From NCBI RefSeq assembly GCF_900167555.1, contig NZ_FUYF01000013.1:1-64000 (forward strand): a DNA stretch of 64,000 nucleotides, written 5' to 3'. The notes below the pieces were generated by a model. That model did not search any database, was not told where the DNA came from, and was given only the letters and a program-made list of their open reading frames with translations. Made by a program: the position numbers and the translations under genes. This DNA is from Gemmiger formicilis. Lineage in GTDB: Bacteria > Bacillota > Clostridia > Oscillospirales > Ruminococcaceae. Below are positions 36-59,007 of this stretch, in pieces (the first letter of the stretch is position 1; each line of letters begins with the position of its first letter).

Positions 36-163
36 GCGGGGCGTCGGGGACGCCGCCCCCTACAAAGTACGCCGCGCTGTAGGGGGCGGGCATGCCCGGC
101 CCGCGGCCTCCCGGAACCGCCCGTTCACGGTTGACCCGCAGGGGAGGGATTCATCCCTCCCGC
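36..163. repeat. Cluster of three palindromic GTAGGG/CCGC units
   Basis: Three units lie at 36-63 (reverse), 79-104 (forward, core GGGCATGCCC) and 138-163 (forward, core GGGAGGGA-TTCA-TCCCTCCC). The tail of a fourth, CCGCCCTACA, starts the window at base 1. Each unit has an outer GTAGGG (or CCCTAC when reversed), a palindromic core and an inner CCGC. No gene is seen in bases 1-183. The family recurs throughout the window and its core sequence changes from copy to copy while still pairing. Confidence 0.8.
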
Positions 164-5009: not shown

Positions 5010-5131
5010 GTAGGGGTCGGGCATGCCCGGCCCGCAGCCTTACGGAAAACGCCTGCCTGCGGGCGCATATAGAATGCGCCCCTACGTTGAAATCGACATT
5101 CTCCGTAGGGGCGGATTCTATATCCGCCCGC
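5010..5131. repeat. Three palindromic GTAGGG/CCGC units
   Basis: Units lie at 5010-5035 (forward, core GGGCATGCCC), 5059-5085 (reverse, core GGGCGCAT-ATAGA-ATGCGCCC) and 5105-5131 (forward, core GGGCGGAT-TCTAT-ATCCGCCC). The first two face each other with their CCGC ends inward. Their spacer contains CCTTACGGAAAACGCC, a sequence also seen in other pairs. The three cores are different but each pairs with itself. They fill the spacer between the divergently oriented ends of the ABC exporter and the SGNH lipoprotein. Confidence 0.85.
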
Positions 5132-7633: not shown

Positions 7634-7849
7634 ATGCCCATTGTGGTCAATCTGGATGTAATGATGGCGCGCCGCCACAAAGGCGCGGGCGAGTTGGCCG
7701 AGGAGATCGGCATCACGCCGGCAAATCTGTCCATCCTGAAAAATAACAAGGCCAAGGCTGTGCGGTTTTCGACGCTGGAGGCTCTCTGCCGGGCGCTGGA
7801 CTGCCAGCCGGGGGATATTCTGGAGTTTGTGCCGGACGAGAATCGGTAG
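7634..7849 (+). CDS. Small XRE/Cro-type HTH regulator (YozG-like)
   Basis: A 71-residue protein that is almost entirely a Cro/CI helix-turn-helix. It shows GELAEEIGITPANLSILKNNKAKAVRFSTLEALCRALDCQPGDILEF, the pattern of one-domain YozG/YdaS-like regulators that follow DUF2975 proteins. AAGGAGG lies just before the ATG, and the gene is cotranscribed with the DUF2975 gene. Its TAG stop (7847-7849) is part of the GTAGGGG of a palindromic repeat unit, so insertion of the repeat may have trimmed or fixed the C-terminus. Confidence 0.85.
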   Translation: MPIVVNLDVMMARRHKGAGELAEEIGITPANLSILKNNKAKAVRFSTLEALCRALDCQPGDILEFVPDENR

Positions 7850-7931
7850 GGGCCGGGCATGCCCGGCCCGCGGCCTTCCCGCAGGCAAACGTTTGTTATA
7901 CACTGCCGAGCCGGACTTGTCCGGCCCCTAC
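7846..7931. repeat. Opposed pair of palindromic units; first supplies a stop codon
   Basis: The forward unit at 7846-7871 (core GGGCATGCCC) and the reverse unit at 7905-7931 (core CCGGAC-TTG-TCCGG) face inward, with GGCAAACG in the spacer. The TAG in the first unit ends the XRE gene. Confidence 0.85.
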
Positions 7932-7945
7932 GTTGAGGTGATGGT

Positions 7946-9262
7946 ATGCTGTATGCTGTTTTAATGTACCCGCTGGCGTATTTTTATCTGCGCGGAGTGA
8001 TGTTTCCGCAGTCATATCCGGATTGGGGGATGCCGGTTTTTGCGGCGCTGTTCATTGTGTATGTGGACTGTGCCGCCCGTGCCGCGCACCGCACCGCCGC
8101 CAGGGAGACGCCGCTCTGGGCCGTATGCTGGATGGCGCTGGCTGCGGCGTATCCGTTGTACGGCTACCAGCCGGGGCCGCTGGGGGACTGGCAGTGGCCG
8201 GCATGGCATCTGTTCGCCGTCTGGTATGTGCTGGCACGGTGCGGGATGCTGGCGCAGGGGCAGAGCGGCAGCCTGGCCCCGCTGGACGCGCTGGCCGGAT
8301 TTGTCCTCCTGCCGTTCGGGAATTTCTTCCTGCGGGCGCGCACGGTCTTTGCTGCGCTGCGCACCCATCTGCAGGACCGCACGGGGATACGAAAAGTTCT
8401 GCGCCTCATCGTTACCGCAGCGGTGACGCTGGCGCTGTGCGGTGTGGCATGGGGGCTGCTGGCAGCAGCCGATGCCAACTTTGCCGCACTGGGGCAGCAG
8501 GTGTCCGACTGGTGGGGCAGGCTGCTGAACAATGTGAGATTCATTGACCAGCTGATGTATATCCTGCACTCACTCCCGGTGGGTGCGTGGCTGTACGGGC
8601 TGGTGGGTGGCTCCCTGCGCCGCAAAGCCCCGCCCACCACGGCGCAGCAGTGTGCCGCTGTGCTGGAAAACTGCCGCATTGTGCCGCGCACCACGGCGGT
8701 GGCGGCTGTAATGGCGCTGTGCGGCGTCTATGCGTTGTTCTTTGCCGTGCAGGCAGGGGAGTGGCTCGCCGCTGCGCCGCTGGGGCTGGACGCACCGGAC
8801 ACCGCCGCTTTTGCGGTGAACGGCTTCTGGGAGCTGCTGAAAATCCTGCTGCTCAATTTTGCGGTGCTGGCGGGCATACAGTTCTTTGGCCGTGCGCCGC
8901 TGCCCAAAGCGTTGGCCGCCGTGTTCTGCGGGTTCGGCGTGGCTTTTGCTGCGCTGGCAGCGGGCAAGCTGGCTGTCTATGTGACGCTCTGCGCCCTGAC
9001 GCCCCGGCGGTTCACGGCGGCATGGTGCCTGTTTGTTCTGGCCGTCTGTGCGGTGCTGGCGCTGGTGCGGGTGTTCAAGCCGATCCCGGCGGCGAAGCTC
9101 GCCATTTTTGCGGCAGCAGTCAGCTTTACACTGCTCTGCTGCGTGAATGTGAAGCAACGGGTCATTGATGTAAATCTGGCACGGTATGAAGCCGGGATAG
9201 ATGAGGAGCTGGATTGGGGCGTGCTGTGGGAGTGCGGGTATAAGGAGAACGCAGCGCGGTAG
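7946..9262 (+). CDS. Polytopic membrane protein of unknown function (DUF4153/DUF4173-like)
   Basis: A 438-residue protein with roughly ten hydrophobic segments and no enzymatic motif that I can recognise. The overall plan (several N-terminal helices, a Tyr/Trp-containing loop, C-terminal NLARYEAG...LDWGVLWECG) resembles the DUF4153/DUF4173 group of Firmicute membrane proteins, but this is a weak call. GAGGTG precedes the ATG at the right spacing. The TAG stop at 9260-9262 is, again, the TAG of a palindromic unit (9259-9284). Codon use matches the neighbours. Confidence 0.55.
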   Translation: MLYAVLMYPLAYFYLRGVMFPQSYPDWGMPVFAALFIVYVDCAARAAHRTAARETPLWAVCWMALAAAYPLYGYQPGPLGDWQWPAWHLFAVWYVLARCGMLAQGQSGSLAPLDALAGFVLLPFGNFFLRARTVFAALRTHLQDRTGIRKVLRLIVTAAVTLALCGVAWGLLAAADANFAALGQQVSDWWGRLLNNVRFIDQLMYILHSLPVGAWLYGLVGGSLRRKAPPTTAQQCAAVLENCRIVPRTTAVAAVMALCGVYALFFAVQAGEWLAAAPLGLDAPDTAAFAVNGFWELLKILLLNFAVLAGIQFFGRAPLPKALAAVFCGFGVAFAALAAGKLAVYVTLCALTPRRFTAAWCLFVLAVCAVLALVRVFKPIPAAKLAIFAAAVSFTLLCCVNVKQRVIDVNLARYEAGIDEELDWGVLWECGYKENAAR

Positions 9263-9458
9263 GGGCCGGGCATGCCCGGCCCGCGCGCGTAAGGCAAACA
9301 GGCGCTTGCGGGAAAGCCGCACGGAGGGGTCAAGACCCCTCCCTACAGGATGACGATAACGGGTGCTTTGTAGGGAGCGGTCTTGACCGCTCCGCGGGAT
9401 GTGTACGGCAAACGGCTGCCTCCCGGAAGGCCGCGGGCCGGGCATGCCCGGCCCCTAC
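9259..9458. repeat. Compound array: two opposed pairs of palindromic units
   Basis: Units lie at 9259-9284 (forward, core GGGCATGCCC), 9323-9346 (reverse, core GGAGGGGTC-AA-GACCCCTCC), 9370-9395 (forward, core GGAGCGGTC-TT-GACCGCTCC) and 9433-9458 (reverse, core GGGCATGCCC). The order is forward-reverse-forward-reverse. Both spacers contain GGCAAAC and CGGGAAAG/CCGGAAGG. Units two and three differ at paired positions (GGGG/CCCC versus GCGG/CCGC), so the stem is conserved. The array fills the spacer between convergent genes. Confidence 0.88.
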
Positions 9459-13397: not shown

Positions 13398-13570
13398 GTA
13401 GGGAGGGGTCTTGACCCCTCCGCGGAACCTGACGGCTGTCGCAGACTGCCCCGGGACGCATATATGCGTCCCCTGCAAGCCTGCGGAAGGTCCGTAGGGG
13501 CGGCATATATACAGCCCGGAAACCTCGCCGCTGCCGATAACGGCCCGGAGGGGTCAAGACCCCTCCCTAC
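13398..13570. repeat. Four palindromic units in two opposed pairs
   Basis: Units: 13398-13423 (forward, core AGGGGTC-TT-GACCCCT), 13452-13476 (reverse, core GGGACGCATATATGCGTCCC), 13494-13518 (forward, decayed) and 13547-13570 (reverse, core AGGGGTC-AA-GACCCCT). They fill most of the 393-base spacer 13284-13676, which otherwise holds only the prfB promoter. Confidence 0.85.
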
Positions 13571-15394: not shown

Positions 15395-15579
15395 GTAGGG
15401 AGGGGTCTTGACCCCTCCGCGGCGCTGTGCGGTTGCCGCATAGTTGCGCGGAATGCATATATGCCGCCTGGTGCAGTTTCCGTCGCCCGTAACCTTCCCG
15501 GAGCGGTCAAGACCGCTCCCTACAAGCCGTTTTAAACAATTCCGCCGCCCTGTAGGGGCCGGGCATGTCCGGCCCCTGC
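15395..15579. repeat. Four palindromic units in a 347-base spacer
   Basis: Units: 15395-15420 (forward, AGGGGTC/GACCCCT), 15449-15466 (decayed, core GCATATATGC), 15500-15523 (reverse, AGCGGTC/GACCGCT) and 15552-15579 (forward, GGGCATGTCC). The spacer 15271-15617 holds only the terminator, these units and the ribosome site of the P-type ATPase. Confidence 0.82.
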
Positions 15580-18073: not shown

Positions 18074-18150
18074 GCAGGGAGGGGTCTTGACCCCTCCGCG
18101 GGGCCTGGCGGCGGCCACGGTGTTCCGGGCCGGATATGTCCGGCCCCTAC
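18074..18150. repeat. Opposed pair of palindromic units
   Basis: Forward unit 18074-18099 (AGGGGTC-TT-GACCCCT) and reverse unit 18125-18150 (GGCCGGA-TAT-GTCCGGCC). They lie between the converging P-type ATPase and DUF1275 genes. Confidence 0.85.
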
Positions 18151-23408: not shown

Positions 23409-23494
23409 GTAGAGGCCGGACATATCCGGCCCGCAACCATTCCACAATCGGACGATAGAATCGAAGCCGCGGGCCGGGCATGCCCGGCCCTTGC
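23409..23494. repeat. Opposed pair of palindromic units inside the V-ATPase operon
   Basis: Forward unit 23409-23434 (GGCCGGA-CAT-ATCCGGCC) and reverse unit 23469-23494 (GGGCATGCCC), CCGC ends inward. The pair sits between subunits I and K. Confidence 0.85.
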
Positions 23495-28020: not shown

Positions 28021-28224
28021 AAAATAATAAATAATAAATGTGGATGCGCGGCAGCACCCCCGGCAGGGGGAGGTAGGGGCGAACATTGTTCGCCCGCCCG
28101 TTTGCCGCTATTGCACGATTTTCGGGTTTACCGTAGGGGCGGATTCCATATCCGCCCGCACTTTGAGCCGCGCAGCGGCGATCCACTTTCTTTTTTATTT
28201 ATTATTTATTCTTTATTATTTATC
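28008..28224. repeat. A+T-rich inverted repeat enclosing two palindromic units, between atpB and atpD
   Basis: The left arm (28008-28039) is built of AATAATAAAT motifs, and the right arm (28192-28224) of ATTTATTATTTATT motifs. They are nearly complementary over about 27 bases. The enclosed 150 bases hold forward units at 28073-28097 (GGGCGAACA-T-TGTTCGCCC) and 28133-28159 (GGGCGGAT-TCCAT-ATCCGCCC). The left arm includes the atpB stop; the right arm ends just before the atpD ribosome site. It looks like an insertion with terminal inverted repeats, and in RNA it would form a large stem. Confidence 0.75.
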
Positions 28225-28868: not shown

Positions 28869-29064
28869 GCCTTCTCCCTCTGGGGGAGAAGGTGGCCCCG
28901 CAGGGCCGGATGAGGGGAGAGCTTATGGCGGTTGCCCGTCTGTGGGGGCACCGTAGGGGCGGATTCTATATCCGCCCGTGGAGATTTGCCCGTTTAAGGG
29001 CTGCAATGACAGACTTTGCCCGCATCAGTCACCTTCGATGACAGCTTCCCCCGAGGGGGAAGCT
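28869..29064. repeat. Second-family element with a first-family unit between its arms
   Basis: Left arm: CTTCTCCCTCTGGGGGAGAAGG (28869-28892) with GGTGGCC...GGATGAGGGG. Right arm: CATCAGTCACCTTCGATGACAGCTTCC..., ending in the palindrome at 29043-29064. A forward GTAGGGG unit (28953-28978) lies between the two arms, so one family is nested in the other. The 337-base spacer 28862-29198 otherwise holds only a -10-like TATAAT (29134-29139). Confidence 0.82.
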
Positions 29065-30430: not shown

Positions 30431-30600
30431 GTAGGGAGCGGTCTTGACCGCTCCGGGAACGTGACGATGGCCGCAAACAGCCCGGAGGGGTCAAGACCCC
30501 TCCCTACAAGCAGGGTAGGGGCCGCACATGTGCGGCCCGCAACCTTACGGCAAAAGCAATTTTACCGGAAAGCCGCGGGCCGGGCGTGCCCGGCCCCTAC
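30431..30600. repeat. Four palindromic units in two opposed pairs
   Basis: Units: 30431-30455 (forward, AGCGGTC/GACCGCT), 30484-30507 (reverse, AGGGGTC/GACCCCT), 30515-30540 (forward, core GCCGCACATGTGCGGC) and 30575-30600 (reverse, core GGGCGTGCCC). The second spacer contains CCTTACGGCAAAAGC, as in other pairs. They lie between the convergent fucO and lepA genes. Confidence 0.87.
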
Positions 30601-40850: not shown

Positions 40851-40876
40851 GCGGGCCGGGCATGCCCGGCCCCTAC
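40851..40876 (-). repeat. Single palindromic unit between fruK and fruA
   Basis: A reverse unit with core GGGCCGGGCATGCCCGGCCC. TTTACCGTAAAGC upstream resembles the spacer side of other pairs, so its forward partner may have been lost. It sits within the operon transcript, about 38 bases before fruA. Confidence 0.85.
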
Positions 40877-43811: not shown

Positions 43812-44888
43812 TCAGCCCAGGCTGATGCCCATGGCGCGGGCGACGTTCAGCATGTCGCAGTCGCCGGGCACGCCGCGGGTCTTGCCGGCGATGTCGGCCA
43901 GCGGGTTGGCGGTCACATGGCGGTTGACCATGGCGACGGTCACGCCGTAGTGCTCGTCCGCCACGAGACCGGCAGCGTAGGAGCCGAACTGGGTGGCCAG
44001 CACGCGGTCATAGGCGCTGGGGCTGCCGCCGCGCTGCATGTGGCCGGGCACGCAGATGCGGGTCTCGGCGCCGGTCATCTCCTCGATCTGCTTCGCAATG
44101 CGGGCTGTGGCGGTGGTGTAACCGGCCTCGGCGCGCTTGGCGGTCCACTCCTTGCGCTTCATCTTGGCCTCCTCGGTGGAGAAGGCACCCTCGGCCACGG
44201 CCAAAATCGAGAAGTTCTTGCCTGCCTTGGCGCGGTTCTCGACAGCAGCGGCGACCTTCTTGATGTCGTAGGGCAGCTCCGGCAGCAGGATGATGTCCGC
44301 GCCGCCCGCAATGCCGGAGTACAGCGTCAGCCAGCCGGCTTTGTTGCCCATGATCTCAATGCACATGACGCGGCTGTGGCTGCCCGCGGTGGTGTGGATG
44401 CGGTCAATGACCTCGGTGGCGATGTCCACAGCAGTGTGGAAGCCGAACGTCACGTCGGTGCCGTAGATGTCGTTGTCGATGGTCTTGGGCAGACCGATGA
44501 TGTTCAGGCCTTCCTGGCTGAGCAGGTTCGCGGTCTTGTGGGTGCCGTTGCCGCCCAGGCAGAGCAGGCAGTCCAGTTTGGCGGCGCGGTAGTTTTTCTT
44601 CATCGCGGCAACCTTGTCCACCTTGTCCTCCTCGACCACGCGCATTTTTTTGAACGGGGTGCGTTTGGTGCCCAGAATGGTGCCGCCCACGGTCAGAATG
44701 CCGGAGAACTCGTCCGGAGACATCTCCCGGAAGTTGCCGTTGATCAGGCCGTCGTAGCCGTTCATGATGCCGACGATCTCGACCTTATCGCCCATGCGGT
44801 GGTACAACGCCTTGGCCACGCCGCGCAGGGTAGCGTTCAGGCCGGGGCAGTCGCCGCCGGAAGTCAGGATACCAACACGAATCGCCAT
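43812..44888 (-). CDS. pfkA: 6-Phosphofructokinase, group III-like active site
   Basis: A 358-residue PFK of glycolysis. The N-terminus GILTSGGDCPGLNATLRG and PKTIDNDI (about residues 134-141) are clear. The nucleotide-binding loop reads GGNGTHKTA (N114-G115) instead of GGDGS (ATP type) or GGDDT (PPi type), while K135 in PKTIDND is the residue found in PPi-using enzymes (ATP enzymes have Gly). This mix is seen in group III or mixed-substrate PFKs, so the phosphate donor cannot be called from sequence. GGGAGGTTTTT precedes the ATG. The product of FruK bypasses this enzyme. Confidence 0.92.
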   Translation of the reverse strand: MAIRVGILTSGGDCPGLNATLRGVAKALYHRMGDKVEIVGIMNGYDGLINGNFREMSPDEFSGILTVGGTILGTKRTPFKKMRVVEEDKVDKVAAMKKNYRAAKLDCLLCLGGNGTHKTANLLSQEGLNIIGLPKTIDNDIYGTDVTFGFHTAVDIATEVIDRIHTTAGSHSRVMCIEIMGNKAGWLTLYSGIAGGADIILLPELPYDIKKVAAAVENRAKAGKNFSILAVAEGAFSTEEAKMKRKEWTAKRAEAGYTTATARIAKQIEEMTGAETRICVPGHMQRGGSPSAYDRVLATQFGSYAAGLVADEHYGVTVAMVNRHVTANPLADIAGKTRGVPGDCDMLNVARAMGISLG

Positions 44889-44928
44889 TGTAAAAACCTC
44901 CCGTTGCTTATATATTCTACTATATATA

Positions 44929-44957
44929 AATGTACGCTAACCGCAAAAGGATGTCAA
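44929..44957 (-). promoter_or_regulatory. Promoter of pfkA
   Basis: On the minus strand: TTGACA (44957-44952), a 17-base spacer and TACATT (44934-44929). Confidence 0.7.
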
Positions 44958-45030
44958 GTATAGTTTTTGCACGATGCTGCGAGCAGAACAAACTTTTTTG
45001 AAAAAATCTCAAAAAAATTCAAAAAAAGGC

Positions 45031-45059
45031 TTGCAATTTGGAAACACCTTTGCTATAAT
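45031..45059 (+). promoter_or_regulatory. Promoter of tRNA-Tyr
   Basis: TTGCAA (45031-45036), a 17-base spacer and TATAAT (45054-45059). Confidence 0.85.
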
Positions 45060-45102
45060 AACATACGTCGCCGGGTGACACGGCAGACACAAAACAAAAT
45101 AT

Positions 45103-45187
45103 GGGAGCTTTCCCGAGTGGCCAATGGGGACAGACTGTAAATCTGCTGCTTAATGCTTCGGTGGTTCGAATCCACCAGCTCCCACCA
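45103..45187 (+). tRNA. tRNA-Tyr (anticodon GTA)
   Basis: 85 bases including encoded CCA, with the long variable arm expected of a class II tRNA (CTGCTTAATGCTTCGG). Acceptor GGGAGCT/AGCTCCC. The anticodon loop CTGTAAA gives GTA. T-arm GGTTCGAATCC. Confidence 0.96.
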
Positions 45188-45190
45188 AAA

Positions 45191-45224
45191 AGGACCCGCA
45201 ACTTAGGTTGCGGGTTCTTTTTTG
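45191..45224 (+). terminator. Terminator of tRNA-Tyr
   Basis: ACCCGCAAC-TTAG-GTTGCGGGT followed by TCTTTTTTG. Confidence 0.88.
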
Positions 45225-45336
45225 TGCTGGAGCTGGTAGGATTCGAACAGGTCGGCCGTCCGCAGACGGCAAAAAACAGTCCTGCGGACTGTTTTTTAGA
45301 CCGCGGCTTGCGAATCCACCAGCTCCCACCAAAAAG
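45224..45336. repeat. Inverted and direct remnants of the tRNA-Tyr 3' end
   Basis: Bases 45311-45336 repeat the tRNA-Tyr 3' end and first downstream bases (45167-45192) exactly over 26 bases. A degenerate inverted copy (GGAGCTGGTAGGATTCGAAC) lies at about 45227-45250. Between them is an ACAGTCC-TGC-GGACTGT hairpin with TTTTTT. After the direct copy comes another terminator (AGCTGTGGCAA/TTGCCGCAGCT, 45335-45361). The layout suggests a small insertion at the tRNA 3' end that duplicated the target. Confidence 0.7.
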
Positions 45337-45371
45337 CTGTGGCAAAGATGTTGCCGCAGCTTCTTTTCTTT
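45335..45371 (+). terminator. Second terminator downstream of tRNA-Tyr
   Basis: AGCTGTGGCAA-AGATG-TTGCCGCAGCT followed by TCTTTTCTT. It is probably the original terminator of tRNA-Tyr before the 144-base duplication or insertion. Confidence 0.7.
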
Positions 45372-45432
45372 GCTGTATCGCACAAAACCGGCAAAGGCGA
45401 TGACCGATTTTCAAAGTGCGTTTTATAGAGAT

Positions 45433-45466
45433 GTCCAACTGCTTCCGGGCGGTTGGACTTTTTTTG
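45433..45466 (+). terminator. Free-standing terminator hairpin
   Basis: GTCCAAC (45433-45439) pairs with GTTGGAC (45452-45458), followed by TTTTTTT. No gene precedes it on this strand after tRNA-Tyr. Nothing else recognisable lies in 45372-45652. Confidence 0.65.
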
Positions 45467-45652
45467 TTGCCAACCTTTATAATTCTAAGTGCCGATACGG
45501 CGAGCGAGGTGCCGCAGCCGCCGGAGCGGTGCTTGAGCCGTAAGGTGGGAATTGTGCGGTATTGCCTTAAATTTCCCCGCAGCCGGAGACCGTGGAGTGG
45601 TTCATGCCCATCCTGTAAAATCAGAAACCGGGCACAGAATTACAGCGGGCAC

Positions 45653-45681
45653 TTGCAATCCGGGCGGAAAACAGGTATAAT
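45653..45681 (+). promoter_or_regulatory. Promoter of tRNA-Arg
   Basis: TTGCAA (45653-45658), a 17-base spacer and TATAAT (45676-45681). Confidence 0.85.
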
Positions 45682-45695
45682 AGCAACTGTTACCT

Positions 45696-45772
45696 GTCTC
45701 AGTAGCTCAGCTGGATAGAGCACACGCCTCCTAAGCGTGGGGCCGGAGGTTCAAATCCTCTCTGGGACGCCA
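45696..45772 (+). tRNA. tRNA-Arg (anticodon CCT), integration target
   Basis: 77 bases including CCA. Acceptor GTCTCAG/CTGGGAC, anticodon arm CACGC-CTCCTAA-GCGTG (anticodon CCT), T-arm GGTTCAAATCC. The 3' half from the anticodon loop onward (45728-45772) is repeated at 50003-50047, so the island at 45.8-50.0 kb entered here and left the tRNA intact. Confidence 0.96.
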
Positions 45773-45875
45773 GGAAGCACCGCTGCAAGCCTTTTTTCGG
45801 GGCTTGCAGCGTTTTTTTATTCCTCCTTTTCCCGGTAATTTCGCTTCTGTTACCGAGAGATTTTTATACGCCGCA
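45728..45875 (+). repeat. Left attachment repeat (attL) with tRNA-Arg 3' half
   Basis: The first 46 bases (45728-45773) are identical to 50003-50048. Homology then continues with a handful of substitutions through the terminator to 45875. A core beginning in the anticodon loop is typical of tyrosine-recombinase targets. Confidence 0.85.
45781..45818 (+). terminator. Terminator of tRNA-Arg
   Basis: CGCTGCAAGCC and GGCTTGCAGCG form a stem followed by TTTTTTT. An almost identical copy lies at 50056-50091 in the right repeat. Confidence 0.9.
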
Positions 45876-45884
45876 TGATGTATA

Positions 45885-45946
45885 TTTGCTAATTGGACTC
45901 GAACGCTTTTCAGAAATTTGCTAAGAAAATTCTGCGTTTTGCTAAT
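45885..45946 (+). repeat. Three TTTGCTAA motifs at the left island end
   Basis: TTTGCTAAT (45885-45893), TTTGCTAAG (45917-45925) and TTTGCTAAT (45938-45946), all in the same orientation. Two matching motifs lie at the right end (49847-49866). Such short repeats near both ends resemble arm-type recombinase binding sites. The function is inferred. Confidence 0.55.
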
Positions 45947-45959
45947 TCGATTTTTCGGA

Positions 45960-46199
45960 TCACTTTGCCGGGGCTTGCGCCGCTATCAGGGCTGCGAGCG
46001 CACTTGCCAGCTCCGGCGACTTATGAAGCTGCTCCACAAGGCTTTCAAGGTCCAGGGTCGCAGGCTCCGATTTTGCCGATTCTTCCGGCGGACGGACATT
46101 GCGGAGATCAGGCTTGGCATAGAAGGCTGTCTCAAATTTCTGACCCAACTTGTCTCTTTCATCAAAATTACCCCGTAACTTGATGTTTCTTTGATACAT
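45960..46199 (-). CDS. Possible C-terminal fragment, 79 residues, unknown
   Basis: An open frame overlapping the 3' end of the ABC permease gene by 32 bases. Its middle and end (LGQKFETAFYAKPDLRNV...LESLVEQLHKSPELASALAALIAAQAPAK) look protein-like and are more G+C-rich than the ABC genes beside it. No ribosome site is evident, and the first residues lie within another gene. It may be the surviving C-terminal end of a larger gene of the element. I do not recognise the family. Confidence 0.35.
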   Translation of the reverse strand: MYQRNIKLRGNFDERDKLGQKFETAFYAKPDLRNVRPPEESAKSEPATLDLESLVEQLHKSPELASALAALIAAQAPAK

Positions 46200-47274
46200 T
46201 TTTTGTTAGTCTATAAAATACGAATATCAATCCAACATTAAGGATGATCATAAAGACCGGCTGGCTCATACCGAAATATGTTTTCATATCAGAAAATATA
46301 CCGTTTGTATGAAGCATAAAAATCGGGCAAATTTCCTGCATTTTTTGTAAAACAGGAAGGCTATCATTAAAATCAAACACAACTGGCAAGAAGCAGATGA
46401 CGCAAGAAGTAATAAGCGCTGTAACAGGAGAACTCATTTGAGCACTTAAAAACAATGTAATAGTTGTCAAGGCTACAATCCCAAAAATATTCAATATTAC
46501 AGAGATAAAGAACATTTGCAAAAAGGTCAAATTATATATTGAAGAAGCATAATGTAATGAAGATTGAATGCTTACATTCCACCCCTGTAACCCATAGGTA
46601 CAGCCATACAGAACTAAATTTAGCAGTAAATACAAGAGGTATGTGCCAATTACAACTTCCAAGGCCGCTATAATTTTTGAAGTTGTGAGTTTGGTTCGGC
46701 CATACCGAGCCGAATAAATAATGCTATCTGTATGAAGTGCATACTCTTCTGAGAAAACAGGAGATAGAGTGATTACAACAATTAAACATATCATTATGGA
46801 CAAGATGCTCCCCATTCCAGATAATAGCTTATCCCAGCCATCACAATATCCTAAAGTCACAGTTGGACTATTTGGATATGCTGTTTCGAGTGACTTAAAA
46901 CTACCATCAGAATTTGTCAAATATTCCAGAATCGCCGCTTGGTCACGATAAACATGAACAGCAGAAAAAGCAGAATTTTCATCTTGTCCAACAGTTGCTT
47001 GTTTTGCTTGGTCGATTTTTTCTTGCATAGTAAGTAATGTATTTTGAGAGAGTTTTCCTTCAAATATTTCTGCTACTTCCTTCCGTTGTTCAATGGCTGT
47101 AAAACCGCTTGCTAATGCCATTTTTTCAAGGTCATAATCATAGAAAACATTTTGATAATTAAATTGAAAAAAGAAAAAATAGGCAACGATAAGAACCACA
47201 CCAGCTAAAAACAACATTCGTGTTTGCTTTCTCGAACATATTTTATTTCGTTCTGCTTTTATCATTTCATTCAT
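46168..47274 (-). CDS. ABC-2-type permease in the island
   Basis: A 368-residue membrane protein. One helix lies near the N-terminus (MLFLAGVVLIVAYFFFF, after a basic stretch), then a large extracytoplasmic region (about residues 40-135), then five more helices. This is the ABC-2 export permease plan. The ATG at 47274 overlaps the end of the ATPase gene, so the two are coupled. With the ATPase it likely exports, or protects against, a peptide, antibiotic or lipid, as BcrAB/LanFEG-type systems do. The substrate is not known. It is A+T-rich. Confidence 0.75.
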   Translation of the reverse strand: MNEMIKAERNKICSRKQTRMLFLAGVVLIVAYFFFFQFNYQNVFYDYDLEKMALASGFTAIEQRKEVAEIFEGKLSQNTLLTMQEKIDQAKQATVGQDENSAFSAVHVYRDQAAILEYLTNSDGSFKSLETAYPNSPTVTLGYCDGWDKLLSGMGSILSIMICLIVVITLSPVFSEEYALHTDSIIYSARYGRTKLTTSKIIAALEVVIGTYLLYLLLNLVLYGCTYGLQGWNVSIQSSLHYASSIYNLTFLQMFFISVILNIFGIVALTTITLFLSAQMSSPVTALITSCVICFLPVVFDFNDSLPVLQKMQEICPIFMLHTNGIFSDMKTYFGMSQPVFMIILNVGLIFVFYRLTKNVSKKHQVTG

Positions 47275-48142
47275 GCTCGGATACCTCCGTAAAATAGTAT
47301 AAATACAAATCTTCCAATGTTGGATCAACATTCCAAGCGGTTCTGCATGGTGCTTCTTGAGAAATAATCCTCAGCCGTTCTGCACCATTATTATGTTTCA
47401 GATTTGCTGTTACATAGTTCAATTCTAATTCTTCGGCCTCTTTTCGAGATACATCACATTCCCAAACACATTTTTCAATCGGCTTCAAAATTTCTTCTGG
47501 AGAACCATGTTGAATTAACTCGCCATTATTCATAATCAGAATCTCATTTGCGATATATTCAACATCAGAAACAATGTGAGTGGACAAAATTACAATTCTA
47601 TTTTCTGCCAAAGAACTAATCAGATTCCTAAACCGCACCCGCTCTTTCGGGTCAAGTCCAGCTGTAGGTTCATCCAAAATCAAAATACGGGGATCGTTTA
47701 GTAATGCTTGAGCAATTCCCAAGCGTTGTTTCATACCGCCGGAAAAAGTTTTGATTTTTTCGTTTTTCTGTGTGAGCAGATCAACAACCTGCAACAGCTC
47801 CATTGTGCGATTATGGGCTTTTTTAGGCGGCAGCCCCTTTATTGCAGAGATATACATCAAAAATTTATACGCTGTAAAGTTAGGATAATAGCCAAAATTT
47901 TGTGGCAGGTAGCCTAAGATATTACGATATTTCTCGCCCAAATCATGAATGTTTTTCCCGTTAAAAAAAATGGCTCCTTTCGTTTCAGTTTGGACATCGC
48001 AAATAATTCGCATCAAAGTTGTCTTGCCCGCACCATTTGCCCCGAGTAGACCATAAACACCATTTGTTAATTTTGCGCTGAAATGATTTACAGCTTTTTT
48101 TCTTCCATATTCTTTTGAAAGATCATTTATTGTAAGTTCCAT
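47267..48142 (-). CDS. ABC transporter ATPase (BcrA-like) in the island
   Basis: A 291-residue ATPase. It shows Walker A GANGAGKTT (about residue 36), a Q-loop (YLPQNFG), signature FSGGMKQRLGIA, Walker B ILILDEPTAGLD and the switch His (LSTHIVSD). The C-terminal extension (about residues 215-291) is typical of single-domain ABC-2 ATPases. The start at 48142 overlaps the preceding membrane-protein gene by 16 bases, and the downstream permease overlaps its end. All four genes of the run are therefore translationally coupled. Confidence 0.9.
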   Translation of the reverse strand: MELTINDLSKEYGRKKAVNHFSAKLTNGVYGLLGANGAGKTTLMRIICDVQTETKGAIFFNGKNIHDLGEKYRNILGYLPQNFGYYPNFTAYKFLMYISAIKGLPPKKAHNRTMELLQVVDLLTQKNEKIKTFSGGMKQRLGIAQALLNDPRILILDEPTAGLDPKERVRFRNLISSLAENRIVILSTHIVSDVEYIANEILIMNNGELIQHGSPEEILKPIEKCVWECDVSRKEAEELELNYVTANLKHNNGAERLRIISQEAPCRTAWNVDPTLEDLYLYYFTEVSEHE

Positions 48143-48900
48143 ATCAATTCTCCAATCATTTTTTCTTTTTTCAAGTACAGTTGAAGTGTTTTCCCTAATA
48201 GGATAATAGATAACACATAAAATCCAATCCATCCCCAGAACATAGACGCTTCAAATATAAATCGCTGATGGAGTACAAGAGAAAATGTTCCAGAAAGAAA
48301 AATCATACAAGCGATTAAATGATACAAGCTATCGTTTGTCCTGCTTTTCGCACATATAAAAAGATAACAAGTGCAAGAAATATTAAACGGAATCAAACCA
48401 TACAACACCATTTCAATCATTGATTTCTGGTAAATATATGCCATTGAAATTAAAATGACTGTTATTAGGAAAAGGTTGATTACTCCAATAATCAGCATAC
48501 GACCTGCTACAATTTTTACCAGCGTTGTTCTACTAGACTGTTCAATTTCCCACATACCATAGATGTTGCTTTTAGATATTTCTATTGCACCTAATAACGC
48601 AAGGAATGGAACCATAACTGCAAGGATTGTCAATGGATAATAAAATGGAACCCTCCATTGGCCCAGGATACATGCTAATAATACTGCACATATAGTGAGT
48701 ATTATTTGAACAATCCAGAAAGAAAGCGGCAGAAATTGAAGTTGGTTCAATATAATATCTCGCATTGAATTTTTATTGAATTCAGAACTATTCATGTAAC
48801 TTTTTCCAGCTACGATTACTGCTTTAATTTTAGGTTCAGATGGAGCAGGCGTTTCACAACTCTGCAACCATTCTAATACACCATTTTGTTTTTGGGTCAT
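48127..48900 (-). CDS. Membrane protein linked to the ECF sigma factor and ABC transporter
   Basis: A 257-residue protein with a 60-residue N-terminal cytoplasmic segment and six predicted membrane helices. Its start overlaps the sigma-factor stop (ATGA), so the two are coupled. In position it could be a membrane anti-sigma factor. In topology it resembles a second ABC-2 permease half. I cannot separate these; no anti-sigma zinc motif (HxxxCxxC) is seen. Codon use is as A+T-rich as the rest of the island. Confidence 0.6.
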   Translation of the reverse strand: MTQKQNGVLEWLQSCETPAPSEPKIKAVIVAGKSYMNSSEFNKNSMRDIILNQLQFLPLSFWIVQIILTICAVLLACILGQWRVPFYYPLTILAVMVPFLALLGAIEISKSNIYGMWEIEQSSRTTLVKIVAGRMLIIGVINLFLITVILISMAYIYQKSMIEMVLYGLIPFNISCTCYLFICAKSRTNDSLYHLIACMIFLSGTFSLVLHQRFIFEASMFWGWIGFYVLSIILLGKTLQLYLKKEKMIGELIWNLQ

Positions 48901-49445
48901 ACATTATCGCCTCCTCTAAAATCAGCCAAATATCGTTCCAGTTTTTTAATCCCCTGTTGGAGCCTAGATTTTACAGTAGAAACACTAGCTTTTGTAATGG
49001 TTGCAATCTCTCGGATTTTCAAATCATAATAAAATCGTAAAATGATGACCTCTTTTTGATAGTCCGGTAATGTGTTGATTGCATATTGAATTTGCGCTTT
49101 AAGTTCGTTAAGCTCAATTTTTTCAAAGGCATTATCAGTATCTTCTATATCTTCAAGAGTTTCTAAATCCATATACAGGGGTTTTGCTTTCTTAGTATAA
49201 TTGTTACAGGTATTAACAGCAATCGTTAGCAGGTAGTTTTGAAATTTCCCGATCTTTCGTACTGATTGAATATTCTCCAACAATTTCAAGAAAACATCTT
49301 GTGTAATATCTGCGGCGGTATCTGGATCGCCGTTCAATCGCCGACAACAAAATAGATAAATTGACTGATAATATTTTCGGACAATTATCTCAAATGCATC
49401 TGTGTCACCCGACTGGATTTTTTTAATTAGTATGAAATCTTCGAT
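48897..49445 (-). CDS. ECF-type RNA polymerase sigma factor, start codon apparently ATC
   Basis: Sigma region 2 (IQSGDTDAFEIIVRKYYQSIYLFC...DITQDVFLKLLENI) and region 4 (INTLPDYQKEVIILRFYYDLKIREIATITKASVSTVKSRLQQGIKKLERYL) are complete. The reading frame extends upstream of the first usable start (TTG at 49337) with clear region 2 sequence, up to ATC GAA GAT TTC at 49445. A GGAAGGCGG ribosome site lies upstream of that ATC. This looks like an ancestral ATG changed to ATC. Starting at the TTG would remove about 36 residues of region 2. The factor likely drives its own island operon. Confidence 0.75.
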   Translation of the reverse strand: MEDFILIKKIQSGDTDAFEIIVRKYYQSIYLFCCRRLNGDPDTAADITQDVFLKLLENIQSVRKIGKFQNYLLTIAVNTCNNYTKKAKPLYMDLETLEDIEDTDNAFEKIELNELKAQIQYAINTLPDYQKEVIILRFYYDLKIREIATITKASVSTVKSRLQQGIKKLERYLADFRGGDNV

Positions 49446-49653
49446 ACCGTGTCACCGCCTTCCATGTGTAAAACGCCTTACACTTAATATACAACTGAGT
49501 AACCCAAAAGGATTTAACTTTAGAAATTTTTCTTTTACTTTTTTCATTTCCCTTCTATTGTAATTCCTGCTCTTGAAAAATATAAGATGTAATATATGAA
49601 TTATAAACTTCAATCAACCTGCATATAGCAACATTCCACGGGCAAAGTATGAA

Positions 49654-49764
49654 TTATACAATGTAATAGGGTGATGCTATATGGCAAATGTTTAGCATGG
49701 CCGCAATTTGTTCCACGGTATATGTGCGCGGTTCCGGCAACGACTTTTTCTCTTTCTTGTCCAT
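49654..49764 (-). pseudogene. Truncated excisionase-like DNA-binding protein (N-terminal 36 residues)
   Basis: GGAGGTTACT lies at ideal spacing before an ATG that reads MDKKEKKSLPEPRTYTVEQI, then AAMLNICHIAS, and stops. TYTVEQIAAMLNI is the start of the helix-turn-helix found in small excisionase-like proteins of integrative elements (usually continued as ...S..TAY.L). The reading ends before the second helix, so the gene is broken. It would explain the absence of self-mobility. Confidence 0.5.
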
Positions 49765-49846
49765 AGTAACCTCCATATATTTGCCTTGTCATTTTGACTA
49801 AGGGAGTGGAGAATGGCAGTAGCAATCGGCTTTGGCTGGGTGTCCT

Positions 49847-49866
49847 CTTGCTAAGAATTTGCTAAT
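49847..49866 (+). repeat. Two TTGCTAA motifs at the right island end
   Basis: CTTGCTAAG (49847-49855) and TTTGCTAAT (49858-49866), in the same orientation as the three at the left end. Confidence 0.5.
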
Positions 49867-50002
49867 AGGACCACCCAACAGACACATAAAACTGCGTCAG
49901 AATAGGTGTTTTGCACCATAAAGTTCGTTTACTACAAGTCATTCTGCGTAAGGGATGATATTGGAAGTTACATCCGAACCGTGTATCACATGGTAAGCCA
50001 TA

Positions 50003-50149
50003 CTCCTAAGCGTGGGGCCGGAGGTTCAAATCCTCTCTGGGACGCCAGAAAGCACCGCTGCAAGCCTTTTTTCGGGGCTTGCAGCGTTTTTGTTTTCTCC
50101 TTCTCCCGGTAATTTCACTTCTGTTACCGGGAGATTTTTATACGCCGCA
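50003..50149 (+). repeat. Right attachment repeat (attR): copy of tRNA-Arg 3' half and terminator
   Basis: It repeats 45728-45875 with a small number of differences; the first 46 bases are identical. The second hairpin is intact here (CCCGGTAA/TTACCGGG then AGATTTTT) but mismatched in the left copy. It is not a functional tRNA, because the D-arm and 5' acceptor are missing. Confidence 0.85.
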
Positions 50150-50254
50150 AGCTTTTTTGTGACGGCGTTGGATTCGGCAAGGACGCATTGTTTACAATTT
50201 GGCGGTGGATTATCCCGCGCAGGGTGTGGTACAATATAAACTACACTGAAAATG

Positions 50255-50333
50255 CAGGGGCCGATGCTCACCATCGACCCGTGAACCTTGCGGCGGCCGC
50301 TATGTGCCGCGGGCGAACCATGTCCGCCCTTAC
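50255..50333. repeat. Opposed pair of palindromic units upstream of bsh
   Basis: A forward-like unit at 50255-50280 (GGCCGATG-CTCAC-CATCG, decayed) and a reverse unit at 50309-50333 (GGGCGAAC-CAT-GTCCGCCC, one mismatch). Confidence 0.65.
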
Positions 50334-50388
50334 ATTCTCGACGCAGGAAAGCCGCGCTGCATCTATTATAATTAAAGGGGTGTTTACC

Positions 50389-51363
50389 ATGTGTACAGCT
50401 GCAACCTATACAACCGACAGTTTCTACTTTGGCCGCAATCTCGATTATGAATTTTCCTACGGTGACGAGGTCACCGTCACGCCGCGGGCCTACCCGTTTA
50501 GCCTGCGCTGCATGGGGGACTTCCGCACAAAATATGCGATGATCGGCATGGCCTACGTGGCGGGGGAGTACCCCCTCTACTATGACGCCGTCAATGAGAA
50601 GGGCCTGGGCATCGCAGGGCTGAACTTTGTCGGCAATGCAATCTACCACCCGGCGCAGGATGGCAAAAGCAACGTCGCCCAGTTTGAGCTGATCCCCTGG
50701 CTGCTGGGCAGCTGTGCGACGCTGGCCGAGGCGCGCACGCTGCTTGCAAAAACCAACATCGTCAATATCCCGTTCAGTGAGCAGCTGCCCCTCGCGCAGC
50801 TGCACTGGCTCATTGCCGACAAAACGGGGAGCATCGTGGTGGAGTCCACCGCCGACGGCCTGCACATCTACGATAACCCCGTCGGTGTACTGACGAACAA
50901 TCCGCCGTTCCCGCAGCAGCTTTTCGCACTGAACAACTACCGCGCACTCTCGCCGCGCACGCCTGCGGTTGCGTTTGCGGACGGCCTTGACCTGCCCGTC
51001 TACAGCCGCGGCCTCGGCGCACTGGGCCTGCCGGGCGATCTGTCCAGCCAGTCCCGCTTTGTGCGCGCGGCCTTTGTGCGGATGAACGCGAAATCCGGCA
51101 GCAGCGAGGCCGAGAGCGTCGGGCAGTTCTTCCACATCCTGCACGCTGTCGAGCAGCAGCGCGGCTGCTGTGAGCTGGACGGCGGCAAGTACGAGATCAC
51201 GCTCTACACAAGCTGCTGCAACGCTGACAAGGGCATTTACTACTATACGACCTACGGCAACCACCAGATCACTGCCGTCGATATGCACCGGGAAAACCTT
51301 GACGGGGACAGGCTGGTCCGCTATCCGCTGGTGCAGGGCGAACAAATTGCGCTGCAAAACTGA
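50389..51363 (+). CDS. bsh: Bile salt hydrolase (choloylglycine hydrolase, Ntn family)
   Basis: A 324-residue linear amide hydrolase. It deconjugates glycine- or taurine-linked bile acids. The catalytic nucleophile is C2, exposed after Met removal (MCTAATY). Also present are R16 and D19 (FGRNLDYE), NEKGLGIAGLNF, LTNNPPF (substrate Asn) and SQSRFVRAAF (catalytic Arg). There is no signal peptide, so it is cytoplasmic as usual for BSH. AAAGGGG lies before the ATG at 50389; the in-frame upstream extension runs through repeat units and was rejected. The nearest relative could instead be a penicillin V acylase, but the NNPPF and N-terminal pattern fit BSH. It implies exposure to bile, i.e. an intestinal habitat. 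Confidence 0.9.
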   Translation: MCTAATYTTDSFYFGRNLDYEFSYGDEVTVTPRAYPFSLRCMGDFRTKYAMIGMAYVAGEYPLYYDAVNEKGLGIAGLNFVGNAIYHPAQDGKSNVAQFELIPWLLGSCATLAEARTLLAKTNIVNIPFSEQLPLAQLHWLIADKTGSIVVESTADGLHIYDNPVGVLTNNPPFPQQLFALNNYRALSPRTPAVAFADGLDLPVYSRGLGALGLPGDLSSQSRFVRAAFVRMNAKSGSSEAESVGQFFHILHAVEQQRGCCELDGGKYEITLYTSCCNADKGIYYYTTYGNHQITAVDMHRENLDGDRLVRYPLVQGEQIALQN

Positions 51364-51391
51364 TTTTACACCCAAAACGTGAAAAAAGCGC

Positions 51392-51420
51392 TTGCAACGT
51401 GCGGCAAACTATGCTATACT
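51392..51420 (+). promoter_or_regulatory. Promoter of secG
   Basis: TTGCAA (51392-51397), a 17-base spacer and TATACT (51415-51420). Confidence 0.8.
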
Positions 51421-51484
51421 GTACGGTGCATGAGACTTTTCACGTCACGACGGCGTGGATAGAAATAGAAGGAGTGCTAATCTA

Positions 51485-51733
51485 ATGAACTGGTATGAGA
51501 TCGTTCTCGGCGTCGTCCTCATCGCCGTGTCCGTGTTGATCGTTGTTTTCACCCTCGCGCAGGAGCAGAAGGGCCAGGGCCTGTCCGGCGCGATCATGGG
51601 CGAAAGCTCCGCCACGATGGCAGCAGGCCGTGAGCGCGGCGTGGACGCCAAGCTGGCCAAGCTGACCAAGATCTGCGGCGTCGTTTTCTTTGTCGTCACG
51701 CTGGTCGTCTGCGTTTTGAGCGCGCGCCTGTGA
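51485..51733 (+). CDS. secG: Preprotein translocase subunit SecG
   Basis: An 82-residue protein with two membrane helices (about residues 4-24 and 58-78) and the conserved loop QEQKGQGLSGAIMGESSATMAAGRERGVDAKLAKLT between them. It assists SecYE-SecA protein export. AGAAGGAG precedes the ATG at 51485. It is followed by a terminator and then rnr, a gene order common in Firmicutes. Confidence 0.93.
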   Translation: MNWYEIVLGVVLIAVSVLIVVFTLAQEQKGQGLSGAIMGESSATMAAGRERGVDAKLAKLTKICGVVFFVVTLVVCVLSARL

Positions 51734-51759
51734 TTTTGGCAGGGTAACAAAGATGAAAA

Positions 51760-51811
51760 GGGTCCGCCAAGCGCTTTGGCTTTGTAAGCAGCGCCCCGGC
51801 GGACCGTTTTT
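51760..51811 (+). terminator. Terminator between secG and rnr
   Basis: GGTCCGCC (51760-51767) pairs with GGCGGACC (51797-51804), with an inner AGCGC stem, followed by GTTTTTTG. Confidence 0.85.
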
Positions 51812-51875
51812 TGTGGATGTATATAAGGGTAGGGCACCGTCGGATGGCGGTGCGACGTAAATTAAAGGAGCAACT

Positions 51876-58902: not shown

Positions 58903-58927
58903 CGGGCGGATATGGAATCCGCCCCTA
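58903..58927 (-). repeat. Single palindromic unit
   Basis: A reverse unit with core GGGCGGAT-ATGGA-ATCCGCCC followed by CCTAC. It lies between the PBP gene and the MarR promoter. Confidence 0.8.
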
Positions 58928-59007
58928 CGTTGAATCGGGAAAGCGCAGGGTGACGGGGCTCTGCCCGTTTGCCACTGCACTATACAAAAAACTCTGCGCC
59001 GTCCCTC

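Follow-up and report, generated by a model that had tools for sequence, protein, structure and literature searches.

Repetitive extragenic palindromic (REP) sequences with a GTAG tag form a described superfamily. PMC3733652, in the passages that treat it, reports a GTAG foot, a stem of 8-10 bp, a short loop, high copy number, inverted dimers and subfamilies with complementary stem changes, and notes that REPs lie inside many unrelated genes. Compensatory changes have also been reported for the spacers of REPINs, the inverted REP dimers (PMC3116915). The associated enzymes, REP-associated tyrosine transposases (RAYTs) or TnpAREP proteins, are stated to co-evolve with their REPs and to use the foot, the loop and the irregularities of the hairpin (PMC8266576). 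In-frame REPs within the transposase gene itself were reported in 2018 for TnpAREP subclass 2.4, which corresponds to RAYT group 4, 'generally' between HuH and Y (PMC6006769). Orthologous RAYTs with different REPs, the new variant spreading in the genome, are described as a REP orthoswitch in PMC3686654, on whose mechanism the authors 'can only speculate'. Here we analysed a stretch of 64,000 nucleotides from the gut bacterium Gemmiger formicilis (contig NZ_FUYF01000013.1, positions 1 to 64,000; the window), in which a dispersed family of palindromes had been noticed. We are confident that these units are GTAG-tagged REPs, most likely spread by RAYT/TnpAREP enzymes, and that many RAYT genes carry an in-frame inverted REP pair.

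Neither the family nor the presence of REPs inside the gene is new. A previous inspection of the window from its letters alone (the sequence-only reading) had named no described family for these palindromes; this has to be withdrawn, since PMC3733652 already presents GTAG-tagged REPs with 'alternative complementary stem residues'. The hosts named there are Proteobacteria, Cyanobacteria, Chloroflexi and the Planctomycetes-Verrucomicrobia-Chlamydiae (PVC) group, whereas Gemmiger belongs to the Bacillota. The RAYTs studied here share with subclass 2.4 the HUH-Y core, in-frame REPs, an insert between HuH and Y and a G-C rich stem foot. They differ in that two inverted copies bracket the HUH motif, while the passages of PMC6006769 considered here describe no such pair and no copy before HuH; that subclass is said to be abundant in Cyanobacteria and Bacteroidetes and scattered elsewhere. 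The E. coli TnpAREP (PDB 4er8) has the same fold and HUH-Y core, but its gene is flanked by REPs in inverted pairs (PMC6006769). In the orthoswitch, too, the switching REPs flank the gene according to PMC3686654, whereas here they lie within the coding sequence and four sites change together. Rickettsia palindromic elements resemble the present ones as in-frame palindromes in coding genes; in the account of PMC3733652 they carry a CGTC tag and have no dedicated transposase, whereas a GTAG foot, which does not match that tag, and a RAYT are found here. An inverted pair bracketing HUH, its fixed place in Clostridial genes and a concerted switch were not found in the titles, abstracts and passages of the literature surveyed, and the two-copy bracket and the concerted switch look like a new variant.

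A scan of the window for hairpins preceded by an exact GTAG foot yielded 32 places, 27 of which were retained as REPs; those at 6404, 18784, 38246, 51829 and 53277 were not REP-like and were set aside. Together with one further GTAG unit with a decayed stem (13494) and five units with an altered or absent foot (138, 13453, 18074, 23471 and 50254), the total is 33 units (27 with the exact foot and about six decayed; Table 1). This agrees with the 33 or more palindromes counted by the sequence-only reading, and the examples it quoted are present, the one at 13453 with a GCAG foot on the minus strand. Units are 23, 24, 25 or 26 nt long and are built of GTAG and a stem, mostly of 8-10 bp, that starts with GG and ends with CC around a loop of 0-5 nt. 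The frame proposed for all units, GTAGGG-N(15-22)-CCGC, was matched literally 18 times in the window against 1.16 expected (maximum of 4 in 100 shuffles), and 17 of the 18 matches are hairpins, the exception being 2463-2489. Its CCGC end is variable, with GT or GG after other units and CT after unit 15552. What stands of the frame is the GTAG foot and a stem starting with GG and ending with CC; the last GC is merely common.

The window comes from contig 48 of a 3.24-Mb draft genome, designated G000. The proposed genome-wide collection of frame matches gave 685 in G000, compared with 150 for the reversed pattern. In a sample of 979,991 bases of G000 (52 pieces, window included), a hairpin stood behind 337 of 1,511 GTAGG feet (22%), compared with 2.2-3.6% for 12 other feet. 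Chance palindromes were ruled out by these other-foot controls and the shuffles. A known RNA family was also rejected, as the only Rfam matches of the window at the gathering score were three tRNAs. As in described GTAG REPs, the unpaired GTAG lies directly 5' of a hairpin with a stem of 6-13 bp and a short loop, and the units are present in high copy, dispersed within one genome and divided into species-specific subfamilies. Among 160 pairs of neighbours within 250 bp, the feet point outward in 77, inward in 35 and in tandem in 48; inverted dimers with outward feet, the arrangement of REPINs, are thus found. No shared target site was visible by eye in the flanks of 35 dispersed copies.

The sequence-only reading had further claimed that the two arms change together and had proposed a covariation test. 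Units were picked by their ends alone (GTAGG...CC at a fixed length), and the pairing of the inner bases was then scored. In the 0.98 Mb of G000, pairing was bimodal for unit lengths 23 to 26 and not for 27. The 24-nt units (distinct sequences) formed 465 of 1,036 inner pairs, compared with a mean of 309 (standard deviation 14.8, maximum 358) in 1,000 re-dealings of the arms, and lengths 23 and 26 likewise lay above all 1,000 deals. In four smaller samples, length 24 exceeded all deals each time, length 26 once (G016) and length 23 never, so that an excess of paired arms at length 24 was found in all samples. In addition, nine pairs of abundant cores, with 3 to 53 copies per parent, are one compensated base pair apart, and the 18 possible one-sided intermediates amount to 3 copies in 0.98 Mb. 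Such a gap between abundant parents and near-absent intermediates is not what copying with drift would produce. One-sided variants do exist, for example GGAGGGGGC TT GACCCCTCC, with 2 copies in the genome sample. On the evidence of the re-dealing test and of the scarce intermediates, the arms do covary.

The Y1/RAYT transposase suggested by the sequence-only reading is present and bears the same hairpin as some window units. PF01797 gave two weak Y1 matches in G000, one of which is a 165-codon open reading frame (ORF) between gyrB and gyrA. The HUH motif and the downstream W-Q and YI..NP motifs of RAYTs were found, together with a predicted TnpAREP fold, and the sole NCBIfam match of each of six proteins was REP_Tyr_transpos (NF047646). 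The best PDB match by sequence was 4er8 (E 9e-12). A Flavonifractor homologue, L158, was modelled with AlphaFold2 (mean predicted local distance difference test score (pLDDT) 88), and the model was compared with 30 chains at E up to 0.001; 4er8 gave the lowest root mean square deviation (2.6) and the top query TM-score (0.65), and stood 13th by Foldseek E-value, with the ISDra2 and IS608 transposases ahead of it. The gyrB-gyrA gene occupies the same place in 10 genomes of the genus, and among the matches listed G000 and G037 each contain a single full-length one. For this gene, an IS200/IS605 insertion sequence was rejected given the fixed location and the absence of near-identical copies among the matches listed. 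A five-protein profile had matches in 19 of the 35 genomes of the genus and in 61 of the 245 genomes of the order, a few of these matches being weak or fragments. Frame-pattern matches were more numerous in genomes with a RAYT match (medians 99 vs 48, Mann-Whitney p=4.5e-4), the exception being G039, a genome 71% complete, with 196 pattern matches and no RAYT match. Directly 3' of a RAYT gene in G017 (L075, about 1980-2260) lie nine tandem REPs, GGCGGGATG with CCCN-type loops. A further Y1 protein of G000 (C53:8135-9007, L018; 290 aa) has a long C-terminal part and looks like a member of another Y1 group; the gene before it appears helicase-like by eye.

In the gyrB-gyrA RAYT of G000, the peptide VGRGLDPS is the translation of GTAGGGAGGGGTCTTGACCCCTCC, a REP of the window, and a second, inverted copy is read as AEGSRPLPT; the HUH motif is thus flanked by an in-frame inverted REP pair. 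Two gene sets were scanned for such hairpins, with up to two mismatches and slightly different cut-offs: 47 distinct full-length RAYT genes, and 78 full-length genes from named genomes, these being the full-length ones among the best 80 matches to a Bacillota profile. Both hairpins were present in 37 of the 47 genes (one in 4, neither in 6) and in 42 of the 78 (3' only in 13, 5' only in 3, neither in 20). The pooled set without one duplicate (n=124) has 78 with both, 15 with the 3' copy only, 5 with the 5' copy only and 26 with none. When synonymous codons were permuted within each gene, which preserves protein and codon usage, both hairpins appeared in 0 of 940 shuffles of the 47 genes (any hairpin in 13) and 0 of 1,560 shuffles of the 78 (any in 22), that is, in 0 of 2,500 over the two sets. 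With pairing not required, GTAGG feet in the 47 genes were followed by at least 7 of 8 pairs in 38 of 40 cases at the 5' site and 39 of 43 at the 3' site, compared with 0 of 4 at other sites of these genes. The median distance from the end of the 5' hairpin to HUH is 97 nt, and that from HUH to the start of the 3' hairpin is 27 nt, a fixed place that is partly built in by the broad windows of the scan; among the 78 genes with both hairpins, 76 have the 5' foot in frame 0. The 3' copy, found in 93 of 124 genes (78 with both and 15 alone), is an in-frame insert as reported for subclass 2.4. Three consecutive G-C pairs stand at the stem foot of many cores, the third pair being A-T in GGAGGGGTC and some others.

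Within one gene, the two copies resemble each other closely: they have the same unit length in 77 of 78 genes and are identical in 36, and the mean distance at equal length is 1.25 within a gene compared with 7.22 between genes. Where the copies differ, a change in both arms that preserves pairing was counted at 21 pair positions, a change in one arm at 22 and some other change at 5; as read from the list, positions 1 to 8 account for 4 of the 22 one-sided changes, and the other 18 affect position 9 or 10, which lie at or in the loop. Across the 78 genes, 52 different peptides are translated from the 5' copy, which argues that a DNA hairpin rather than one peptide is preserved. In 19 genes, hairpins of a 26-nt class retain a purine-purine mismatch at their seventh pair, recalling REPs whose irregularity is itself recognised, as stated in PMC8266576. 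On a RAYT tree built with the REP-encoded residues removed, REP class required 17 changes, compared with 42.8 when shuffled (0 of 200 as low), in a tree with many unresolved forks and with near-copies that inflate the clustering of classes. The pair was present in 42 of 64 Bacillota genes and in 0 of 14 others (three without an assigned phylum), in a list biased by its Bacillota profile.

Several RAYT genes that lack internal copies are accompanied by external REPs, and some have one upstream and one inside, so that outside, mixed and in-gene arrangements may form a series. In two Bacillota genes tallied as having no hairpin (L183 and L212) an internal pair is reversed, with GTAG or GTGG feet pointing inward; L191 (Chloroflexota), tallied as 3'-only, has two hairpins elsewhere in the gene. 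A single in-gene palindrome bounded on each side by a GTAG or GTGG foot was observed in L213 (Algoriphagus) and L228 (Melainabacteria) and resembles the 'double foot' REPs mentioned in PMC6006769. The idea that dispersed REPINs are copies of the in-gene segment with its HUH spacer was rejected, as no spacer copy was present among the matches listed. In the search of six genomes with RAYT DNA, the off-gene matches of G000 among those listed comprise one hairpin and at most about 25 nt; one off-gene match listed spans 72 nt at 76% identity.

We next consider whether the cores in the gene and in the genome correspond. Six of the 10 gyrB-gyrA genes, those with both hairpins and full length, were compared; G031, whose gene is expanded and gave no single full-length match, and G013, G032 and G016, which have no in-gene hairpins, were left out. 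In the six orthologs, 44 of 48 hairpin columns are invariant, compared with 153 of 414 outside, and pairwise identity is 0.956 in the hairpins and 0.654 outside. The four variable columns are both sides of the third base pair in both hairpins. This pair is A-T in G000 and G037, whose genes group together in the RAYT tree (Shimodaira-Hasegawa-like approximate likelihood ratio test, SH-aLRT, 95), and C-G in the other four. The dispersed copies (counts include in-gene copies) are largely divided along the same line, gene and genome cores matching for part of the cores. The A-T core has 77 copies in the carrier G000 and 16 in the carrier G037, compared with 3 in G016 and 0 in 32 others; the C-G core has 50, 37, 21, 19 and 7 copies in five carriers, 1 in G000 and 0 in G037. 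For a second RAYT, the two carriers have 28 and 8 copies of its 5' core, G037 has one and 32 others have none, which upheld a prior prediction that was not blind for G000, where 9 copies were already known from the sample. In G031 (L083/L092) the gyrB-gyrA RAYT seems tandemly expanded in units of about 120 bp, each with a REP, in one 351-codon frame.

Turnover was also seen at orthologous sites. Thirteen window clusters were compared; the one at 18784 is a chance hairpin, leaving 12 real REP clusters, and 'empty' means here that no GTAGG hairpin passed the scan rather than a proven precise gap. In G037, both flanks of nine clusters were alignable; eight sites were without an intact REP and one had a different REP. 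In G016, four of six alignable clusters were occupied, partly by other cores, and two were without an intact REP, one of them doubtful (the match for 28953 is oriented unlike its neighbours). In one 20-kb piece each of G044 and G004, 11 and 12 of the 13 clusters had no alignable flanks. The interval 7846-7931 is 8 bp long in G037 vs 86 bp in the window, and 9259-9458 holds three REPs with other cores in G016 and no intact REP in G037. As judged from the alignments, these differences are REP gains or losses with the flanking genes in place. Different-core REPs were also observed as repeated mosaics of set order in C40 of G000 (L014, 12462-12892; L016, 10959-11268), resembling bacterial interspersed mosaic elements: a 24-nt core GGGCCGGGCA..., GGAG..GTC and an inverted mismatch core, to which L014 adds an inverted GGCGGCCTG core.

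Several results weigh against an explanation by RAYTs. NF047646 has a cut-off of 80 bits, and one of the six proteins exceeded it (82.9), the others scoring 55-69. The pattern counts contain chance matches, as the reversed pattern gave 76 and 74 in G000. The C-G core is also present in non-carriers (G013, 44; G032, 23; G043, 12; G004, 10). The mismatch core has 53 copies in G046, 48 in G000 and 33 in G045, compared with 21 in the carrier G016, and the TCNAT core has 69 in G000 compared with 65 in the carrier G003; no RAYT with either core was found in those rich non-carriers. The commonest window core, GGGCCGGGCA TGCCCGGCCC, was in none of the collected RAYT genes, its nearest in-gene relative, L118, having one loop base different. 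Moreover, by the scan used here 26 of 124 RAYTs are without either in-gene hairpin, so that a RAYT can do without the pair. The orphan cores could be explained by REPs that outlived their enzyme, as proposed for Pseudomonas in PMC3686654, or by gaps in the draft genomes.

The explanation that we prefer starts from units of a GTAG foot and a hairpin, often in inverted pairs with outward feet. RAYT/TnpAREP HUH enzymes most likely act on single-stranded DNA, where they would recognise the foot together with the folded hairpin and cut nearby. A unit that does not fold would be a poor substrate, and a changed arm would survive or spread mainly when its partner changes too, so that selection for a foldable substrate would yield compensated changes among dispersed copies and a compensated variant could found a new subfamily. 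Through the in-gene pair flanking the HUH codons, enzyme and substrate would travel together, and when the preferred core changes, both in-gene hairpins and the dispersed copies could follow. Recognition, cutting, mobilisation and use of the in-gene pair we infer here from the known biochemistry of TnpAREP proteins.

The sequence-only reading had left open selection on a hairpin or repair between the arms, and of these, selection on the folded hairpin fits best. Template switching that corrects imperfect palindromes would match the arms without selection and would also leave few one-sided intermediates. However, such correction would erase the purine-purine mismatch that the 26-nt class retains in 19 genes and that the dispersed mismatch core carries, decayed copies with mismatches or an altered foot are present, and the gyrB-gyrA switch affects two hairpins about 180 bp apart together with dispersed copies; we regard this explanation as improbable. 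It seems similarly unlikely that the hairpins are kept as RNA elements after genes, such as terminators or mRNA stabilisers. Their location would suit such a role: of 25 scanned window units, 17 lie outside a crude longest-ORF set (the neighbouring ORFs run in the same direction for 11, converge for 5 and diverge for 1) and 8, including the non-REP 18784, overlap ORFs. Known REPs sit likewise, as reported in PMC3733652, and an RNA role leaves unexplained that the GTAG foot is unpaired, that in-gene pairs lie on both strands and that REP class matches RAYT clade.

The role of the in-gene pair is a separate matter. It is conceivable, as a tentative proposal, that the pair is a built-in specificity cassette, in which the RAYT gene would hold the master copy of the enzyme's substrate and selection on the DNA of the coding region would preserve its folding. 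If so, a core change in the gene would re-programme which palindrome is spread, the dispersed population would be re-seeded to match, and Clostridial RAYTs would be self-tagged enzymes with the target written into their own reading frame. The hairpins might instead be passive, a reading that we also hold to be possible but doubtful: REPs would insert near the gene of their own enzyme and persist without a role in tolerant in-frame loops, and the match between gene and genome cores would merely record recent insertion. REPs in many unrelated genes are known, the 26 RAYTs mentioned above manage without either copy, the 3' copy of L158 (about residues 89-97) overlaps a stretch with pLDDT under 50 (residues 93-99), and the variable region may affect activity little, according to PMC6006769. 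On the other hand, place and orientation are fixed (frame 0 in 76 of 78 genes), which is partly built into the scan windows; the 5' copy of L158 occupies a confidently modelled turn that joins two short strands and is no floppy linker; and the six orthologs differ at 35% of other sites, yet keep 44 of 48 hairpin columns. This conservation in a fast-evolving gene favours, though not decisively, in-gene copies that are used, as substrate, seed or regulator, over tolerated insertions.

Enzyme, in-gene substrate and dispersed substrate can all be read from one genome, which bears on how REP families change. The single switched base pair, at four coding sites and in dispersed copies, is a ready-made allele pair for cleavage assays, and the palindrome read in the gene suggests a simple assignment of REP families to enzymes in Clostridia.

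Table 1. REP units of the window, with position, strand and the evidence for each.
Feature	Position	Strand	Evidence
GTAG REP, 26-nt class, G.A mismatch, core GGGGCGGCG TCCC CGACGCCCC	38..63	-	hairpin scan; one loop base off core in G016 RAYT gene
GTAG REP, core GGGGCGGGCA TGCCCGGCCC, one mismatch	79..102	+	hairpin scan
decayed REP, GCAG foot	138..161	+	
GTAG REP, one-sided variant of core GGGCCGGGCA TGCCCGGCCC	5010..5033	+	hairpin scan
GTAG REP, core GGGCGCAT TCTAT ATGCGCCC	5061..5085	-	hairpin scan
GTAG REP, core GGGCGGAT TCTAT ATCCGCCC	5105..5129	+	hairpin scan; matches 5' hairpin within G003 RAYT gene
GTAG REP, core GGGCCGGGCA TGCCCGGCCC	7846..7869	+	hairpin scan; pair 7846/7908 missing at syntenic G037 site (8-bp interval)
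GTAG REP, partner of 7846, stem with one mismatch	7908..7931	-	hairpin scan; G037 synteny
GTAG REP, core GGGCCGGGCA TGCCCGGCCC	9259..9282	+	hairpin scan
GTAG REP, core GGAGGGGTC TT GACCCCTCC	9323..9346	-	identical to both hairpins in G000 gyrB-gyrA RAYT gene
GTAG REP, core GGAGCGGTC TT GACCGCTCC, compensated variant	9370..9393	+	hairpin scan
GTAG REP, core GGGCCGGGCA TGCCCGGCCC	9435..9458	-	hairpin scan
GTAG REP, core GGAGGGGTC TT GACCCCTCC	13398..13421	+	hairpin scan
REP with GCAG foot, core GGGACGCATA TATGCGTCCC	13453..13476	-	
GTAG REP, decayed stem, GGGCGGCATA TATACAGCCC	13494..13517	+	
GTAG REP, core GGAGGGGTC TT GACCCCTCC	13547..13570	-	hairpin scan
GTAG REP, core GGAGGGGTC TT GACCCCTCC	15395..15418	+	hairpin scan
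GTAG REP, core GGAGCGGTC TT GACCGCTCC	15500..15523	-	hairpin scan
GTAG REP, core GGGCCGGGCA TGTCCGGCCC, a rare one-sided intermediate	15552..15575	+	hairpin scan
REP with GCAG foot, core GGAGGGGTC TT GACCCCTCC	18074..18097	+	
GTAG REP, core GGGCCGGA CATA TCCGGCCC	18127..18150	-	hairpin scan
GTAG REP, core AGGCCGGA CATA TCCGGCCC, first pair lost	23409..23432	+	hairpin scan
REP stem without GTAG foot, GGGCCGGGCA TGCCCGGCCC	23471..23490	+	
GTAG REP, core GGGCGAACA T TGTTCGCCC	28073..28095	+	same 23-nt class as hairpins in G000 second RAYT gene
GTAG REP, core GGGCGGAT TCCAT ATCCGCCC	28133..28157	+	hairpin scan
GTAG REP, core GGGCGGAT TCTAT ATCCGCCC	28953..28977	+	hairpin scan
GTAG REP, core GGAGCGGTC TT GACCGCTCC	30431..30454	+	hairpin scan
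GTAG REP, core GGAGGGGTC TT GACCCCTCC	30484..30507	-	hairpin scan
GTAG REP, core GGGCCGCACA TGTGCGGCCC	30515..30538	+	hairpin scan
GTAG REP, core GGGCCGGGC AC GCCCGGCCC	30577..30600	-	hairpin scan
GTAG REP, core GGGCCGGGCA TGCCCGGCCC	40853..40876	-	hairpin scan
decayed REP, GCAG foot, GGGCCGATG CTCAC CATCGACCC	50254..50280	+	
GTAG REP, core GGGCGGAT TCCAT ATCCGCCC	58904..58928	-	hairpin scan

Apart from the REPs, the window has a region of lower GC content at 44001-52000 (46% vs about 62% in its surroundings), which contains two tRNA genes (45103 and 45696) and is possibly an integrated element.

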